DNA from: Aldrovandia affinis
Lineage: Eukaryota > Chordata > Actinopteri > Notacanthiformes > Halosauridae
NCBI GenBank assembly: GCA_029706075.1
Contig: JAINUG010000115.1
Location: 554,501 to 618,500 of the forward strand
Reading direction: 5' to 3'
Length of the DNA: 64,000 bases
Positions 455-53,009 of this stretch are shown here, in pieces. The notes below the pieces were generated by a model, which made no database searches, was not told the DNA's origin, and saw only the letters and a list, made by a program, of their open reading frames with translations. The number at the start of each line of letters is the position of its first letter. Positions within the stretch are counted from its first letter, which is position 1. A program made the translations under genes and the position numbers.

Positions 455-1857
455 TTACATTTAACATTTTAAGCATTTAGCAGACGCTCTTATCCAGAGC
501 AACTTACAAGATGTGCATTAATACAAGGTAAGAACAGTCATAGTTAGCGCACAAGATCAGTGCAGTAAAACAGCAATAGACATCATTGCAGGTGTCTGCG
601 TATCATACCTGTAACACTGGGAAAGAAAAGGTTAGTGGGTTTTTTTAGTTTTTTTTAAAATAGTGTAGAACAAGTAAACGGTGGTGACGACAGATTGACT
701 AGATGGACAGTGTTCAGTGGTAGTGGAGTCTGAAGAGATGGGTTTTGAGTCTCTTGCGGAAGATTGGAAGTGATTCCGCAGTCCTGACCGATTGCGGGAG
801 GTCGTTCCACCAGCGAGGGACCAGGACAGAGAAGAGGCAAGACCGCAAGGAGCGGCTGCCAGGCGCCCGGAGGGATGGGGCAGTCAGTTTGCCAGCGGAG
901 GCGGAGCGGAGGGGTCTGGGCGGGGTGTAGGGAGTGATGAGTGACTGGAGGTATTGGGGAGCAGTACCTCTGGCCGCTTGAAAAGCAAGCACCAGTGACT
1001 TGAATCTGATGCGTGCTGGGATGGGGAGCCAGTGCAGAGAGGAGAGTAGAGGGGTGACGTGGGTGAACTTCGGCTGGTTGAACACCAGGCAAGCGGCAGC
1101 GTTCTGGACTAGTTGCAGTGGCTTGATGGCACAGGCCGGAAGGCCTGCCAGCAAGGAGTTGCAGTAGTCCAGACGTGAGATCACCAGGGCCTGGACCAGG
1201 AGTTGAGTGGCCTCTTGGGTGAGGAACGGTCGGATCCTCCGGATGTTGTGGAGGGAGAAACGGCAGGTCCGAGTGATCGCTGCAATATGGCTCGAGAAGC
1301 ACAGCTGGTTGTCCAGAGTTACCCCAAGACTCCTGTCAGACTGGGACGGAGACACTATGGAGCCTTCCACGGTGATTGACGCATCAATCATCGGGGAGCC
1401 CTTCGCTGGGAGGAAGAGCAGCTATGTCTTCCCCAGGTTCAGCTTCAGGTGGTGGGTGGACATCCATGCGGAGATGTCAGCCAGGCATGCAGAGATCTGT
1501 GCCAGGACCTGGGTATCAGATGGAGAGAAGGAGAGAAACAGTTGAGTGTCATCAGCATAACACTGATAGGAAAAACCATGAGCAGAAATAACAGAGCCAA
1601 GTGACTTAGTGTACAGAAAGAATAGGACGGGGCCTAGCACCGAGCCCTGCGGGACTCCGGTAGAGAGGGTGTGGGGAGAGGAGAGGGATCCTCTCCAGGC
1701 CACCTGGTAGGACCGGTCAGCCAGGTAGGACTCAAACCATGTCAATGCAGATCCAGAGATTCCCATCTCGACGAGAGATGAGAGCAGGATCCGGTGGTCC
1801 ACGGTGTCGAATGCCGCCGACAGGTCGATTATTATTTCGTCATACACTGGGAGTTTT
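455..1857 (-). mobile_element. 5'-truncated L2-type LINE (reverse transcriptase C-terminal part)
   Basis: On the minus strand the region 1422-1847 encodes a reverse-transcriptase segment with AFDTVDH, GVPQGSVLGP and the catalytic YADD motif. Region 714-1391 continues in another frame with the usual L2 C-terminal tail (LDYCNSLLAGLP, SLHWLPIPARIRFKSL, RWWNDLPQSVRTAESLPIF). A frame break lies near 1391-1422, so the element is dead. The element stops abruptly near 1857, as expected for 5' truncation during target-primed reverse transcription. The 3' end at about 455-510 contains the tail motif, on the plus strand GCATTTAGCAGACGCTCTTA, which recurs in several other repeats of this window. It is assigned to L2 or a close relative (CR1/Rex1 group) from these motifs. 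Confidence 0.88.
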
Positions 1858-45447: not shown

Positions 45448-48400
45448 ATGGTGAGATTAAATTATATGCACGTATTCGATTTGTAAAAATGATCAACATC
45501 ATGTGTGTTTAAAGATGGTATCAGGCAGGGTTAGAGTGTGGATGATTTTAAATTGCAGGAGGTAACGTAAATCGGCTAGCCCTTCTAGACGGACATTTTT
45601 TTGTCTTGTTGGCTAAGGTTAACGTTATTGCATGTTTGCAACATTCCAAAACCCATTTGTTTTACGAATGGTCATGTTGCTTCCAAAAAAATGCTTCCTA
45701 GTGAGAATGGCTGTATGTGCGCTAGTAGTGCGTTAAATCGCTAACGTTACGTCTTTATATTTTATGGCAGTGGAGGAGCTCGCCATTTAGGCCTCGATTT
45801 TGAAAAATGTAATTGTGGGTAACTTTGTTGCATCACAGAGTGCTGAATTGGATAAACGAATTATCTTGATAACGCCACAGTGATCCATTTAATGTTAAAC
45901 CTTCGCTTATATTGTTTAAACGATATTTCTTGAACAGTGTTTGTAGTACGACTGCTAGTTGGACCTAAAGCCGGTGCCCACGTGTTGGCTAGAGGTTGCC
46001 ATGAGTCCGTAATTTGGTATGTTAGCGGTCTTAACAATAGAAGTTGGATGACGGGGGATTTACAAGCTGCATACAATGAGCAGAGGTAGTTGTAGTAAAT
46101 TGTGCGAGATGAGTGGTTTGCTAGCGATTCCTCATTTAATTTCCGCTCCATGTCGCCACGTGGTTGCGTTGTAGCATAGCTAAAGTTCCGCAGCTAGCTA
46201 GCGAACGTCACGTTCCGCCATGCGGCCGAGTTTATAAGCTGACCAGTACATACGATTCTAATTAATATTAACCTTGCACAATGGAATAATGTGACAATCG
46301 ACATTTTATACATGTTTTGGCGTATGTTGAGTACTATTTTAAATAGTGTAGTTAAAATTAGGTTAAACTCCAGATGTGTGTTATTTGGGAAATGATTTAT
46401 CCTGGTAAAAATAACGAGTTCGGGCAGCGAGAATGGGCGAAATGGACGTAAACGTTACCAATCTCTTAAAAGTAGCTAGTCATCTTCTCACACGTGGTTC
46501 TTCCCTACCTAGGTGCTGTTGCACGTCCTGTTTGAACATGCAGCTGGCTATGCTCTATTCGCCATCAAAGAGGTGGAGGAGATTGGCATGCTACTGCCAC
46601 AGGTTCGTGCATTGCCCCCTCTCCTGTACGTTTTGATGGTTTTATGGAAAATATACAGCCTTAATCTCAATCTTAAATTAAAACGTGCTTGTACCTGATT
46701 TTCCTATTCCTCAGGTGGAAGAAAGTGTTCTCAACATTGGGAAATTCAACAATGTGGTGAGCCTGGCAGCTTTTTTCCCCTTCAAGTCAGCCCAGACTGC
46801 CCTGGAGAACATCAATGCAATCTCAGAAGGTGAGAAATTGTGGTAGATGGGTGGATTTTTTAATACCTTGTTGGGTAAGGTTAAGGTTAATTGTATGCCT
46901 TGTTGGGCTGGTGAATTATTTGGTGCATCTCTGAAATTCGACATGGATCTACTTCCTGTGGGAATGCGCTCAGGTGTAGTGATGTTTCAATAATCTGTCA
47001 ATCCACTGATCAATGGTGATGTCAGCACAATTTCAGACTGAACATCTGAGCCTAGTCAATATATCAGCCTGTAATCCAAGGATTTAGCGTGTCGCTTAAT
47101 GATCCAGCCTTGATGTCGCTAGACCACTGGTCAACCCCTCCGCTAATGATGGAGGTGGAGGAAAAAATTGCTCGTCTGTTGATGGACATGCATTTCTATC
47201 TCTGTACAGGAGTTGTGCATGCAGACCTCAAGTTGTTCCTGGAGACCAATCTGCCCTCTGGTGGTAAGAAGAAGCAATTGCTGGGCGTGTCCGATGCGAA
47301 GATCGGGGCAGCTCTGCAGGAGGAGCTGGGACTCTCCATCCAGACCAGCGGTGTTGTGGTCGAAATACTCCGAGGTAGACTGACGATGAATGCAGACCCT
47401 GCATGTCTTTAATTCTGCACATAATGGGAGTTTTTATATCTTGTCTGGACTGCAGAAACCTTAAATACTTTGGCTGACTGCACAAATGACTGTTGGAATT
47501 GTTTGTTTGCTTTGTTGGTTGAATTGTTCGTTTGCGTTGCATTTGAAGATGACAAATCAAGGTGGCATTTATTAGTGTATATGCTTGTGGGTAAATGCCC
47601 CATAATCTTTAATCTGAACTTTGTGACGTACAGTGAATTCACTTGATGATTCTTAATCGCACAGCGTCTATCAATCTCAGTGAATTGAATGGCATCCGAC
47701 AATGGATGTAACATTCCTGCATAAAGAAACGCATGTTGTGGCCCCCTGTTTGAGGGGTGAAAAGCCTGAGCTGTTGTGATGTTATTAACTACACTGATCT
47801 GCTGATGTCTCATACTGAAAAGCTGAACAGTCAGGCTGGGTGTCTGGGGGCTGCAGTTCACTGTTAATAATCACAGAGGAATTAATGGGTGTTCTGATCT
47901 CTTCCCCCATATATACATATATACACGCACAATCCATTAGGTATTCGTCTGCACTTCCACTCCCTGGTGAAGGGGCTCACGGCCCTGGCAGCCTCCAAGG
48001 CGCAGCTAGGTTTGGGCCACAGCTACTCCAGGGCCAAGGTGAAGTTTAACGTCAATCGGGCCGACAACATGATCATCCAGTCCATCGCCCTGCTGGACCA
48101 ACTGGACAAGGACATCAACACCTTCTCCATGCGCGTGCGGTATGTCTCCCCCCCCCACACCACAGCCACGGGACACCACATGATGTTATACCAAATCTGT
48201 CAATCCACTGATCTCTCTGATGACAGCCTCTAGGTGCTGATCTGTCCCGTGCTTGTGGCAATTTAACACAAAATAATCATTTTAAATACTGTAACCCGCA
48301 CGCGCACACACACACAGTGCTGTAATGACCTCCCCTTTCTCTGCATGCATGACTGCCAGGGTTGGGATCCGTTTCAATTCAGGAAATTAATTTAAAATTC

Positions 48401-51400
48401 AATGTTTGGTGGATGAGTTTTAAATTCTATTTGCTGAATTGACTGAATATAAATGGAATGTTTTCCATTTCTATTTGCCCTGGTTGCTTTGCATGCTGTG
48501 ATTTGTCGATGCGTATCCTCACCCGCTCCATCCGTCTGTCTGTCACGTAGCGAGTGGTACGGGTACCATTTCCCGGAGCTGGTCAAGATCGTGCCGGACA
48601 ACTCCACGTACTGCCGCATGACCCGTCTGATTGGGAATAGGAAGGAGCTGAGCGAGGAGAGCCTGGAGGGAATGGAGGAGGTGGTGATGGACAGCGCCAA
48701 GGCGCAGGCCATCCTGGAGGCCTCCCGGAGCTCCATGGGTCAGTACCAACCTGGGGTCTGACCTTCCAGACGTTTGTTTTAATTTGCTGAATCCCTCTTC
48801 TGCCTCGACTGATGTGCTCTTTTGCTGGTTGCTGTATTTGTAAAACCTCACACTTCGTCTCTCCCTAAACGTGGTCCTTTACACCCGCGCAGGCATGGAC
48901 ATCTCCCCCATCGACCTGATCAACATCGAGAGCTTCTCCAACAGGGTGATCTCGCTGGCCGAGTACAAACAGGAGCTGCAGGAGTACCTGCGCTCCAAGA
49001 TGGGGCAGGTGGCCCCCAACCTGGCGGCCCTCATCGGCGAAGTGGTGCGTGCTCACAGCCCGTCGACTCCGCATGCATGACCCCCCCTCCCCAACAGCCA
49101 CGGGACACATGATGTTATACCAAATCTGTCAATCCACTGATCTCTCTGATGACAGCCTCTAGGTGCTGATCTGTCCCGTGCTTGTGGCGATTTAACACAA
49201 AATGATCATTTCAGACCTACCAACCTGTACGCATTTTGCGTACAAAGCACGCAATTATTGGTCAAAATACGCATGTATGCAAATGTCAGCTGAAACTACG
49301 CAAAAAAAGAAAAAATTCAGAGGGGCGGAAAATGTAAGAAAACGTAAAAAAAAACTTTTTGCACCACGGACCAGGTCCGAGGGGCGCAATTATTTCGCGC
49401 ACCCCGTGCAGCTATTTTTCGCGTAGAACCCCCCCCCCGAAATAAATGATCTGGTCTCCTCCGTCTCCGTCGACAGAACATGGGGCGCCGTTACGTGCCT
49501 CGCACCGGGTGCTGGCAACCCAAGCTACGCCACTGGTCGCCCCCAACGCCACTGGTTGTACTCAAAAAAAAATTCCCAGGGTTGGCAGGTCTGTAATTTT
49601 ATAATAAACCCTGTAGATGCCAGCAACATTCTTGCAGATTACTGACAGTTTTAAGGAACGTGTTGGCATTCACCAATATTCAGAACTAAAATGATGTCAA
49701 GTTTTGGTTGGTAACCCATCTTTGAAAAAGGGGATCTGCAGGACCGTTGAAATATCACTAGCGTCTAAATGGTTAAGTATTTAGAATGCGTCGATGACCT
49801 AGGTCTGCACTCAACTTAGTAGATGTCTACTGGAAGGTCGCAGTGCCTACAGGCTTTGACTTGTCCAGACCACTATACGACTACAGCCTTCAACGCGCTG
49901 TAAAAGTGCAAACCAGTCTAATACAGAATACCCCCTCCCTCTAAGCCTACATGCAGATAACGGTGCTGGAGTGAGAGTGGATCTGATCGTTGTCCTCCCC
50001 TCTCTCCTCCAGGTCGGAGCGCGGCTTATCTCCCATGCCGGGAGCCTGACCAACCTGGCCAAGTACCCGGCCTCCACCGTGCAGATCCTGGGCGCGGAGA
50101 AAGCCCTGTTCAGGTATTTGCCCACCCCCCGTGTGGGGGCGACAGGTGGCTGCAGTGATGGCAGGGCCGGGGCCAAGCTGAGACGGGTGAGGGGGTGGCG
50201 TCCTGCCTCCCCTGCGTGATCCCTAACTCCTCCCCATGTACCCCACAGACTGAGTAGCCACCCAGGGCACTTGAGAGAGGTAGTTAAACTTGGACGTGTG
50301 GATGAGGTTACACAGGAATATGGTTCGAGGCTTTGAGTAGTAGCTAGTCTTAAGAGCATGTATGCAAGTCTATTTGAATAAAGTCTTTTTAGTTTGGGTG
50401 CTTTAGGTGGTGATAACCTTGATTGCATTCAAAAGGCAGAGCGTCGCAATGTGTTTCAGAGAGCATTGTGGGAGATTGAGTCCAGAGCTTGAGGTTTTAA
50501 AGCACGGGTGTCACTCATTCCATCGAGGGCTGAGCGTATGCAGGTTTTTGTTGCAACAGTGCACTATGCCAGGTGATTTCACTAATTTGCTCACTACTTC
50601 AACCAAGGAGGCGAACTAATTGGTCACCTGGTGTAGTGCATTGGTTGCACCAAAAAACCTGCATACGCTCGCCCTCGATGGAATGAGTGACGCTCATGTT
50701 TTAAAGGGTTTGACATGCTCTGGATTCCACCTCCATCAGGCCCTTTGTGAAACACTGGCGGTTTGCCTTTTGCGTGCACTCCAGCTTTCACATCCAGACC
50801 GCTGCAATGCCGATCCCTATGGCTGTTCAAACACACAGTTGGGGAAAGGGTATTTGTTTGGCTGGCAGCTTTAAACTGATTCTACCCTACCAACACAGAG
50901 CCCTGAAGACTAAAGGAAACACGCCCAAATACGGCCTGATTTTCCACTCCACCTTCATCGGCCGCGCCGCTGCCAAGAACAAGGGCCGCATCTCCCGTTA
51001 CCTGGCCAACAAGTGCTCGATCGCATCGCGCATCGACTGCTTCTCCGGTGAGCCTGGGTCCACAGCGGGAATATTACTGTATTGCCGTTTCCTGAAGCGA
51101 AATGCGGCTCCCCTCCCATTGTCTCGGAAGGTGGAATTTTCCACGGACTCTGCAATGATGCTCACATTTTTCGTCAACAGTATTCCATCCGTTCTGGGTG
51201 GATGGTGAGAGCTTAAATACTGAGCAAAGTCTTCTGCATGCCCGAGAGGTGGCCGGTCGGCCAGCTGTCTCGTTCTCCTGGCTTCACTGACCCCTCTCTC
51301 TCCCCCTCCGCTTCAGAGGTGCCCACCAGCGTGTTTGGGGACAAGCTGCGGGACCAGGTGGAGGAGCGTCTGTCCTTCTATGAGACTGGCGAAGCGCCGC

Positions 51401-53009
51401 GCAAGAACCTGGACGTCATGAAGGAGGCGGTGAAAGAGGTGAGGGTTGGGGCCTTGGACTCCAGCGGGGGCTGTTTAAAACACACATGGGTCAAATACTT
51501 TCGTTTTATTTATTTTTTTCTTTTCTCCAAAGGCCTGGTGTCCCAAGGTTCTGTTCAAATAAAACGCATAAATGGATTTACATTTACATTTTAAGCATTT
51601 AGCAGACGCTCTTATCCAGAGCGACTTACAAGATGTGCATTAATACCTCAATTCTAAATTGGCCTCAAGGGCAATTTTCTAATACGGTATTTCCAAATAA
51701 ACACTTTACCCAGTTTAATTTAAGATACCGGTTGGTCTTGTCCACATAACGTGCCATAAAATAAGCTACAGAGAACCACCTTGTGTGGGATTTGTGTGAG
51801 GGTTGAGTCGACCCCGGTGGCTTGCTGTGAGTGATGACCATCCTTTCCCCGACAATCACGTGGGGGTTCAAACTGATTTAATGAGCCTGACACAGCACAC
51901 GCTGACCTGTGGGGAGATGCCATGCTGGCACAGTAAAGATCTCGCTGTAACCGGACTGGACACGTTTATAGACCACTTTGGGCCGCGGTTCCTCCAGCTC
52001 ATGAATCCACGTGTTGCCCTAAGACACCCGGGCCAGTCACATCCACCTTGGATGCCCTGTGTACTTTGGCATATCCATTTGTACTGCACATATTAGCCTA
52101 GACTAAATTTGTTGCCCCTGTTGGTCAAAACCTCACCAGGCTGGAGAAGTTGCTACTGAGATCAAGCGAAAGCTGGAGAAGAAAGAGAAGAAACGCCAGA
52201 AGCGTGAGAAGAAGAAGCTGGAGGCACTGTCGACTGCAGAAGGAGAGGAAGAGGCGGCGGCGGCGAAGAGCAACGAAGAGGTAAGCCCCGTCGGCCGCCG
52301 GAAAGCCAAAGCGCGCCCGTGCATGGCTTGATTTATGACCGGACCTCACCACATGGTCCCGTCATAGTGTACGACATGCTACATGAACCCACCCCGAACC
52401 ATTGACCGGTCTCTTGCAGTAGACCTGTTCACTGAAGTGGGTGGAACAACACACTTTATCCATGGGCGAGAACTGCTTTGCCATTGAGGGGAAGAGAGAT
52501 TGTCAGTGTTAGGGGGTGTAACTAGCCCCCCTTGCTGATATTACATTTAGGTTTGAGATGTCTTATGTGGGGGTGTTGGGTGAATCAAAAAGATCCAGTG
52601 GGAAGGTTTGAGAACTGTACGTTTCCCCCCCTCCTCCCCATAGGATAATGTGGAAAACGGAGACACGGAAATCAAGAAGAAAAAGAAAAAGAAGCGTGCG
52701 GAGGAAGAAAAGGAGGCTGAAGTGGTGGTGGAAGAGGAGGCGCCGTCGAATGGCATGGAGGACACGCCCGTGACCAAGAAGAAGAAAAAGAAGCGTGTGG
52801 AGGAACCGGAGGAGGCTGCAGAGGTGATGGAAGTGGCGGAAGACGAGGCGCCATCAAACGGCGTGGAGGATACGCCTGTGACCAAGAAGAAAAAGAAGCG
52901 AAAGAGCGAGGCGATGGAACCGGAGCCGGAGCCTGCCGAGGTCACGCCCGAGACGCCACAGACCGAGAAAAAGAAGAAAAAGAAGAAAGCGAAGGCAGAG
53001 GACGAGTAG
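45448..53009 (+). CDS. nop56: Nucleolar protein 56, box C/D snoRNP core component (12 exons, 596 aa)
   Basis: Exons 45448-45450 (ATG only), 46513-46602, 46715-46829, 47210-47374, 47941-48139, 48551-48738, 48893-49044, 50013-50113, 50899-51047, 51317-51438, 52140-52280 and 52644-53009 sum to 1791 nt in frame, 596 aa (human about 594). NOP56 pairs with NOP58, fibrillarin and 15.5K to methylate rRNA 2'-O positions in the nucleolus. The start [20 protein letters not shown] is the NOP5NT domain. The Nop domain includes [10 protein letters not shown]-like [34 protein letters not shown] and [20 protein letters not shown]. The tail after about residue 425 is Lys/Glu-rich with repeated KKKKK blocks, typical of the family, including a tandem duplication [17 protein letters not shown]. 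Exon 1 with only the initiator ATG also occurs in mammals. Introns host several box C/D snoRNAs. The gene is tail to tail with ubap2. Confidence 0.97.
46968..47051 (+). ncRNA. snord110: Box C/D snoRNA, SNORD110-like (nop56 intron 3)
   Basis: C box GTGATGT (46979-46985), D' CTGA (47006-47009), C' GTGATGT (47016-47022) and D CTGA (47038-47041). A 10-bp terminal stem pairs GCTCAGGTGT (46968-46977) with ACATCTGAGC (47042-47051), with one G-U. The guide before D', AATCTGTCAATCC, is complementary over 13 nt to 18S rRNA GGATTGACAGATT. The fifth nucleotide upstream of D' faces the U that I count as human 18S U1288, the site assigned to SNORD110, which is also in NOP56. Confidence 0.92.
47765..47835 (+). 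ncRNA. Box C/D snoRNA candidate without recognised target (nop56 intron 4)
   Basis: C box GTGATGT (47776-47782), D' CTGA (47794-47797), C' CTGATGT (47802-47808) and D CTGA (47823-47826). Closing stem: CCTGA (47765-47769) pairs with TCAGG (47831-47835) and CTGT (47771-47774) with ACAG (47827-47830), with one bulged G. The two possible guides (TTATTAACTACA and TACTGAAAAG) were not matched by me to rRNA or U6. It could be a SNORD86-like or orphan snoRNA. Confidence 0.7.
48167..48251 (+). ncRNA. Box C/D snoRNA, SNORD110-type guide, second copy (nop56 intron 5)
   Basis: C box ATGATGT (48180-48186), D' CTGA (48208-48211), C' CTGATGA (48217-48223) and D CTGA (48237-48240). Terminal stem CACGGGACA (48167-48175) with TGTCCCGTG (48243-48251), 9 bp. 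It carries the same 18S guide AAATCTGTCAATCCA before D' as the intron 3 snoRNA, but the rest differs. Compared with the intron 7 copy it has a 3-nt insertion (CAC) between stem and C box, which loosens the kink-turn geometry. Confidence 0.85.
48357..48466. repeat. Fold-back MITE (AATTCAGGAAATT family), copy 2, nop56 intron 5
   Basis: CAATTCAGGAAATTAATTTA on the left is matched by TTTGCTGAATTGACTGAAT on the right in inverted sense. Lies between the snoRNA and exon 6. Confidence 0.65.
49099..49180 (+). ncRNA. Box C/D snoRNA, SNORD110-type guide, third copy (nop56 intron 7)
   Basis: C box ATGATGT (49109-49115), D' CTGA (49137-49140), C' CTGATGA (49146-49152), D CTGA (49166-49169), and the stem CACGGGACA/TGTCCCGTG (49099-49107 with 49172-49180). 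The guide AAATCTGTCAATCCA is identical to the intron 5 copy. The near-identity with intron 5 extends beyond the RNA (from about 49093 to 49213), showing duplication of a genomic segment of about 120 bp. This copy has the better spacing between stem and C box. Confidence 0.88.
49212..49593. mobile_element. MITE with CAGACCTGCCAACC ends, nop56 intron 7
   Basis: Left end CAGACCTACCAACCTG and right end CAGGGTTGGCAGGTCTG are inverted with two mismatches. The interior contains TACGC-rich sequence and A-runs and no coding capacity. It begins directly after the duplicated snoRNA segment. Flanking duplications are not clear; a hAT or related family is likely. Confidence 0.7.
50503..50698. mobile_element. 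hAT-type MITE with perfect 8-bp target duplication, nop56 intron 8
   Basis: Fold-back element related to the one at 40841: GGGTGTCACTCATTCCATCG at the left and CGATGGAATGAGTGACGCTC at the right, inversion continuing through GCATACGCTC and CAGGTGATTTCACTAAT. The 8-bp direct repeat TTTTAAAG flanks it exactly (50495-50502 and 50699-50706). Confidence 0.9.
51146..51231 (+). ncRNA. Box C/D snoRNA candidate with 18S complementarity (nop56 intron 9)
   Basis: C box ATGATGC (51155-51161; last base not consensus) and D box CTGA (51220-51223) are closed by GACTCTGC (51146-51153) with GCAAAGTC (51224-51231), 7 of 8 paired. Just after box C the segment ATTTTTCGTCA is complementary over 11 nt to 18S TGACGAAAAAT, near human positions 505-515, where SNORD11 and SNORD56 sites lie. 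The D' box is weak. In human, SNORD56 is hosted by NOP56, so this may be its counterpart, but guide register was not confirmed. Confidence 0.7.
51578..51647 (+). mobile_element. L2/SINE 3' tail fragment, nop56 intron 10
   Basis: TTTACATTTTAAGCATTTAG, CAGACGCTCTTATCCAGAGC and GACTTACAAGATGTGCATTA are the 3' end seen in the L2 copies at 455 and 36678. Only about 70 bp remain. Confidence 0.75.
51823..51897 (+). ncRNA. snord57: Box C/D snoRNA, SNORD57 (nop56 intron 10)
   Basis: C box GTGATGA (51831-51837) and D box CTGA (51887-51890) are closed by TGCTGTG (51823-51829) with CACAGCA (51891-51897). The 16 nt before D (AACTGATTTAATGAGC, 51871-51886) are perfectly complementary to 18S GCTCATTAAATCAGTT. 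The fifth nucleotide upstream of D faces an A that counts to position 99 in human 18S, the Am99 site assigned to SNORD57, which is also a NOP56 intronic snoRNA. Confidence 0.95.

Follow-up and report, generated by a model that had tools for sequence, protein, structure and literature searches.

The closest described counterparts of the elements analyzed here are box C/D small nucleolar RNAs (snoRNAs) of the SNORD110 type, a single one of which is known from human NOP56, a gene for which we take NOL5A to be an alias. SNORD110 has NOP56 as its host and U1288 of 18S ribosomal RNA as its target (PMC5025248), and Table 1 of PMC2653536 enters the chicken counterpart GGgCD24 with NOL5A as host, one isoform, and a 13-nt 5′ guide. 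The same survey gives intragenic duplication as the main route of chicken snoRNA expansion, the guides being kept and the rest varying (PMC2653536). Moreover, PMC3349704 records raised snoRNA copy numbers for both fishes and frogs, with four SNORD87 genes in zebrafish and four in Xenopus. Here, we analyze 64,000 nt from the halosaurid fish Aldrovandia affinis (GenBank assembly GCA_029706075.1, contig JAINUG010000115.1, positions 554,501 to 618,500), and the whole of this stretch is called the window below. Three introns of its gene nop56 (3, 5, and 7) very probably hold guides for one 18S uridine, and the snoRNAs of the latter two form a recent copy or a recently homogenized pair.

The host gene comprises 12 exons at 45448-53009 of the + strand (contig C169 of the 1.22-Gb assembly), the exon edges being placed by eye from splice signals. 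The joined exons give 597 codons with a sole stop at the end, and the alignment of residues 1-428 with human NOP56 (PDB 7mq8) has an E value of 4e-230, as compared with 7.3e-99 for human NOP58. The guide-bearing introns and their snoRNAs are as follows, in window coordinates.

46830-47209, + strand: nop56 intron 3, with a SNORD110-type guide
48140-48550, + strand: nop56 intron 5, with a SNORD110-type guide
49045-50012, + strand: nop56 intron 7, with a SNORD110-type guide
46968..47051, + strand: intron 3 SNORD110-like box C/D snoRNA (C/D scan; fold; RF01280 36.4 bits at 46974-47045; RF00610 29.2 bits)
46968-46977 / 47042-47051, + strand: intron 3 stem, enclosing box C at 46979-46985, D′ at 47006-47009, C′ at 47016-47022, and D at 47038-47041
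46992..47004, + strand: intron 3 D′ guide, 13 nt, antisense to 18S GGAUUGACAGAUU
48160..48257, + strand: intron 5 box C/D snoRNA with the long external stem CCACAG.CACGGGACA / TGTCCCGTG.CTTGTGG (C/D scan; fold; RF01280 21.6/40 bits)
48180-48186, + strand: intron 5 box C, followed by D′ at 48208-48211, C′ at 48218-48224, and D at 48237-48240
48194..48206, + strand: intron 5 D′ guide, the same 13 nt as in intron 3
49094..49187, + strand: intron 7 box C/D snoRNA, near-identical to that of intron 5 (C/D scan; fold; RF01280 24.1/40 bits)
49099-49107 / 49172-49180, + strand: intron 7 stem, enclosing box C at 49109-49115, D′ at 49137-49140, C′ at 49147-49153, and D at 49166-49169
49123..49135, + strand: intron 7 D′ guide, the same 13 nt

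Each of the three snoRNAs has boxes C and D, a terminal stem, and internal D′ and C′ boxes, and each lies in an intron of NOP56, which is the position of SNORD110. The fold of the intron 3 snoRNA has a 10-bp external stem. A preliminary description of this DNA had proposed three box C/D snoRNAs with one D′ guide in these introns, and the guide string, the boxes, and the stems were all located. The + strand of the window has three occurrences of the string TCTGTCAATC, at 46994, 48196, and 49125, and the − strand has none; the block that is invariant across all three copies extends to 20 nt, AATCTGTCAATCCACTGATC.

Both strands of the window were scanned for a box C and a box D accompanied by a flanking stem, with 20 shuffles within 200-nt blocks serving as the control. 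The scan returned four matches, all in nop56 (introns 3, 4, 5, and 7) and all with C′ and D′ boxes, as compared with a mean of 0.05 matches per shuffled 64 kb and none with C′/D′. Boxes alone occur near chance (15 matches to TGATGW N35-65 CTGA in the window versus a mean of 12.5 expected), so it is the stem and the guide that carry the weight. The scan under-counts, because SNORD57 in intron 10 and a SNORD56-like element in intron 9 are not among its matches. In the whole 1.22-Gb assembly, the exact 18-mer of guide plus box D′ was found at three places among the matches listed, all of them in nop56. With one mismatch, nine further places were listed, and the reversed-pattern control gave none on the forward and one on the reverse strand.

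The 13-nt complementarity to the Rfam small-subunit (SSU) consensus supports a SNORD110-type guide in all three nop56 copies. The guide had earlier been put at 14 nt; 13 of these pair with 18S, and the last A before D′ is unpaired. The Rfam SSU consensus, for which the alignment partner was a decayed ribosomal DNA (rDNA) copy of this genome, carries an A ahead of GGAUUGACAGAUU / GGAUUGACAGAUUGAU, and because this A faces the last A of the guide, 13 guide letters pair and not 14. The fifth guide base upstream of D′ faces the U of GGAU in 18S, as in the SNORD110 type, and we take this U to be position 1288 of human 18S. The decayed rDNA copy (L018, C2244:6483200-6492900) is interrupted by other sequence.

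The second part of the finding concerns introns 5 and 7 and the element that adjoins the intron 7 copy.

48150..48282, + strand: intron 5 segment common to intron 7 (blastn and pairwise alignment)
49081..49211, + strand: intron 7 segment common to intron 5 (blastn and pairwise alignment)
49212..49593, + strand: transposon-like element of 382 bp whose inverted ends are CAGACCTACCAACC / CAGACCTGCCAACC, abutting the copy in intron 7 on its 3′ side

In the blastn alignment of the two introns, 126 of 134 columns are identical, with four gap positions (E 9e-56). The differences amount to four substitutions, two of them in a C-rich tract at the 5′ edge, one 1-nt indel, and one 3-nt indel that sits between the stem and box C, and from box C to box D the copies agree at 61 of 61 positions. 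The near-identity including flanks, with its 3-nt insertion, had been noticed before and is reproduced by this alignment. The further proposal of a younger intron-to-intron copy stands in so far as the pair, judged from the sequences, is a recent, or recently homogenized, DNA-level copy. Since the match runs past the stems on both sides, it would reflect copying of DNA rather than retroposition of a mature RNA. A DNA search of the genome with the intron 5 element gave only the intron 5 and intron 7 loci among the matches listed. Relatives numbered zero in both viral_contigs and genome_contigs, but these hold viral and prokaryote contigs, so their lack of relatives carries no information on age.

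The intron 5/7 match stops where the 382-bp element starts. The first 89-103 bases of this element are matched at 93-97% by 37 further places in the genome (the query covered the initial 89 bases and a short piece of flank), and two other copies of the element that were read differ internally. Its 6-nt flanks, TCATTT and TAATTT, are one base apart and may represent a target duplication in which a single base has changed; in that case, the intron 5/7 duplication came first and the transposon insertion later. Beyond the transposon, the anchored score of the intron 5/7 match is reached by 69 of 5000 shuffles when one 6-nt flank is removed and by 454 of 5000 when uncorrected. We infer that the duplication preceded the insertion, with the support from beyond the transposon being suggestive only.

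In the mechanism that we propose, the intron 3, 5, and 7 snoRNAs would be released after splicing, with boxes C and D held next to each other by the terminal stem, and would assemble C/D particles in which the D′ guide directs 2′-O-methylation of a single 18S uridine, the one in GGAU, which corresponds to the SNORD110 site U1288 in human. One of the intron 5 and intron 7 genes would have arisen from the other through a recent local DNA duplication of ~134 bp, or the two would have been homogenized recently by gene conversion, and the transposon that adjoins the intron 7 copy on its 3′ side probably came later. The extra copies are predicted to give a single housekeeping methylation added dosage or redundancy and to bring no new function.

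Several observations weigh against this reading. No copy reaches the gathering score of any Rfam family. The intron 3 snoRNA is the top of the five RF00610 matches listed in the genome (65 of 146,494 candidates scored), with 29.2 bits against a gathering cut-off of 64 bits and an E value of 0.34, and another place scores 28.2 bits; the introns 5 and 7 snoRNAs are not among the five. For RF01280 (snoR14), which we take to be a plant family, the scores of introns 3, 5, and 7 are 36.4, 21.6, and 24.1 bits, and the cut-off is 40 bits. The folding energy of the intron 3 snoRNA is not beyond that of shuffled sequences (z −0.28; 66 of 200 shuffles fold as well), and the corresponding values are z −2.44 for intron 5 and z −1.61 for intron 7. 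The snoRNA ends lie 158 nt from the 3′ splice site in intron 3, 293 nt in intron 5, and 825 nt in intron 7. External stems can stand in for the usual spacing between a snoRNA and the branch point, and the long external stems of the intron 5 and intron 7 snoRNAs may compensate for this distance. Finally, the exact conserved 18S motif is listed at one place only, the broken rDNA copy, and the target sequence is therefore drawn from the Rfam consensus together with that copy. Assignment of the intron 3 gene as the SNORD110 counterpart is weakly supported.

The relation of intron 3 to the other two copies was assessed in four tests with the guide and boxes fixed, in which 436, 721, 418, and 1151 out of 5000 shuffled sequences were at least as similar as the intron 3 and intron 5 snoRNAs are to each other. 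These tests agree with the earlier statement that the intron 3 copy has only the guide and boxes in common with intron 5. They do not demonstrate the older guide-preserving duplication that had been proposed to link intron 3 to introns 5 and 7, since a similarity no greater than that of shuffles does not establish descent by duplication within nop56. It is thus possible, although we hold it to be doubtful, that introns 3 and 5 carry unrelated C/D snoRNAs that have a guide in common because 18S constrains it. Shuffle counts of 418 to 1151 in 5000 are consistent with such an origin, as is plant snoR14, in which the guide and the flanking letters are identical; the A and T that surround D′ agree there as well, so constraint alone could yield the likeness. 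However, both snoRNAs lie in one gene, and the exact guide plus D′ is listed nowhere else in the genome. In addition, the unconstrained stretches of the two snoRNAs are short (26-28 nt), and few signs of an old duplication would be expected to survive in them.

As for the pair itself, the match takes in only short flanks beyond the snoRNA and its stems, and a conversion tract of such size over such a distance is plausible. This would suit an old pair whose copies are kept alike by gene conversion between introns ~930 bp apart, a history that we regard as unlikely. Evidence against it comes from a second nop56 copy (L009, C113:2857000-2866999, minus strand; four matched pieces, 79-89% identical), which has no convincing copy in intron 5 or intron 7, though this locus is a poor witness. 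Exon 3 of L009 (edges by eye) contains a piece resembling the locus's own intron 3 and has in-frame stops, so the locus may be a pseudogene. The Rfam search of L009 listed no SNORD110, snoR14, SNORD56, or SNORD57 match; its matches were UnaL2 and three sub-threshold ones from snoRNA families other than these (E 0.38, 5, and 9.7). Pairs of boxes C and D occur there at the chance level (3 versus 2.14). A possible relic of the intron 5 snoRNA in intron 5 of L009 was not confirmed: when this hand-picked stretch was aligned with the intron 5 snoRNA, all but 5 of 2000 shuffles aligned worse, and an unfiltered model search of all of L009 did not have the stretch among its 24 matches. The top match of the model, with 9.6 bits and E 0.0065, falls on the intron 3/exon 4 junction and is partly exon. 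With no snoRNA of the window gene found in it, L009 gives no date for either of the copies in introns 5 and 7, and a recent copy or a recently homogenized pair is the history that we retain.

A different role for the pair is suggested by human NOP56, in which SNORD86 controls the choice of donors on its two sides, and this choice follows the level of C/D protein (PMC9892063 and PMC11028025). The intron 5 and intron 7 elements start 20 and 49 nt past the 5′ splice site and have long stems, and read-through from exon 5 or exon 7 hits a stop at 48231 or 49078, respectively. It is nonetheless very unlikely that they act mainly in cis on nop56 splicing in the way of SNORD86 and not as methylation guides. 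Both copies retain the full 18S guide, intron 5 has no credible donor downstream of its snoRNA (the best scores 2.5 versus 6.4 for the used donor, by a donor-site matrix), and RF00594, the SNORD86 family, has no genome match at E 10, which is a weak test with 54 of 110,760 candidates scored. In intron 7, a single site outscores the used donor (7.3 versus 6.1, by the same matrix), and it is located within the transposon. An identity of the intron 5 or the intron 4 element with SNORD86 was rejected, as RF00594 is not among the matches listed for either. With C/D elements or candidates in introns 3, 4, 5, 7, 9, and 10, the gene might be thought to fill its own introns with such elements, the intron 5/7 pair being a duplicated sensor of C/D protein level, but we consider this highly improbable. 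Were it true, plentiful protein would let particles assemble on the introns and lead through retention or an alternative donor to a premature stop, the alternative donor of intron 7 could be transposon-derived, and the pair would represent a second, independent origin of SNORD86-type feedback, built from a methylation guide. As nop56 encodes a core protein of the box C/D particle that the copies would form, such feedback is testable.

Further copies of the guide were sought at seven of the nine one-mismatch places with R1, a model built from the intron 3, 5, and 7 snoRNAs. The top R1 score, 23.0 bits, belongs to L024, which was rejected as a further guide copy because box C is not at the expected place in the alignment. 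Another stretch (L025, ~1472-1536, minus strand, at C1247 ~394.9 kb) is SNORD110-like, with 20.2 of the 64 bits required by RF00610, a box C, the guide with one change, and a box D′. It has no stable stem or fold (z +0.95) and was likewise rejected; it is perhaps a decayed SNORD110-like copy elsewhere in the genome.

The fourth match of the scan, in intron 4, is absent from the preliminary description.

47763..47837, + strand: intron 4 candidate box C/D element, without the SNORD110 guide (C/D scan, boxes verified)
47763-47774 / 47827-47837, + strand: stem of the intron 4 candidate, with one bulged G, enclosing box C at 47776-47782, D′ at 47794-47797, C′ at 47802-47808, and D at 47823-47826

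This candidate has the four boxes (GTGATGT ... CTGA ... CTGATGT ... CTGA) and a terminal stem of 11 bp, composed of CTGT/ACAG and AGCCTGA/TCAGGCT with the bulged G, although its folding energy equals that of shuffles (z 0.05). No Rfam family comes near its cut-off, the best of 13 listed being SNORD61 with 17.8 bits (cut-off 43), and no other copy of the candidate is among the genome matches listed. R1 gives it 10.3 bits (E 0.0036 over 9 kb), a score that means little alone because the partly exonic place in L009 reaches 9.6 bits (E 0.0065) with this model too. With the boxes fixed, its score is reached by 48 of 2000 shuffles against intron 3, 267 against intron 5, and 238 against intron 7; in a second run of 5000 shuffles, the local and global counts are 155 and 884 against intron 3 and 700 and 564 against intron 5. 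Kinship with the intron 3, 5, and 7 snoRNAs is accordingly not established, the R1 score being barely above the rejected one of L009.

Three further snoRNA-like elements lie in the later introns of nop56.

51150-51228, + strand: SNORD56-like element in intron 9 (22.7/36 bits)
Intron 10: SNORD57 (RF00274, 59.3 bits)
52321-52451, + strand: H/ACA snoRNA-like match of the SNORA42/SNORA80 family in intron 11 (61 bits, cut-off 70, E 4.6e-11)

The SNORD56-like element contains a donor-like site at 51205 that scores 8.7 versus 9.0 for the used donor (by the same matrix); this site may represent an alternative 5′ splice site located within a nop56 C/D snoRNA.

The finding in fish nop56 is real and appears new as a case, and it is ordinary in kind, being one further instance of a known duplication process. 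No account of nop56 snoRNA copies in fishes was found in the portions of the literature covered, and the literature on SNORD110 and zebrafish, judged by listings, yielded nothing on fish snoRNA genes. The locus offers a snapshot of guide-RNA multiplication in one host, with a young pair including its flanks, a more distant gene that carries this guide as well, and an additional candidate that lacks it. Dating the nop56 copies across related fishes could separate duplication from gene conversion.

Comparing the locus with the known systems, SNORD110 (HBII-55; RF00610) has the same host gene, the same D′ guide AUCUGUCAAUCC (family consensus), and the same target uridine. However, fish nop56 has three guide-bearing genes, whereas one isoform is listed for chicken; the intron 3 snoRNA lies far below the family cut-off and those of introns 5 and 7 are not listed, and the latter two differ in their 3′ half and in the greater length of their external stem. 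The snoR14 family (RF01280), which belongs to the same clan as SNORD110 (CL00076), shares the guide and the letters around D′ and is the top Rfam match for all three nop56 copies, although they remain below its cut-off. SNORD86 is likewise a box C/D snoRNA in an intron of human NOP56. It is, however, an orphan acting in cis (PMC11028025), whereas the fish intron 5 and intron 7 snoRNAs keep an 18S guide, and fish intron 5 lacks a credible downstream donor. The multiplication itself has parallels in other hosts. The SNORD87 set of zebrafish (PMC3349704) likewise comprises several copies of one guide, and chicken GGgCD19 occupies introns 5, 7, and 9 of GNL3 (PMC2653536), so that there, as in fish nop56, one guide is found across several introns of one host.

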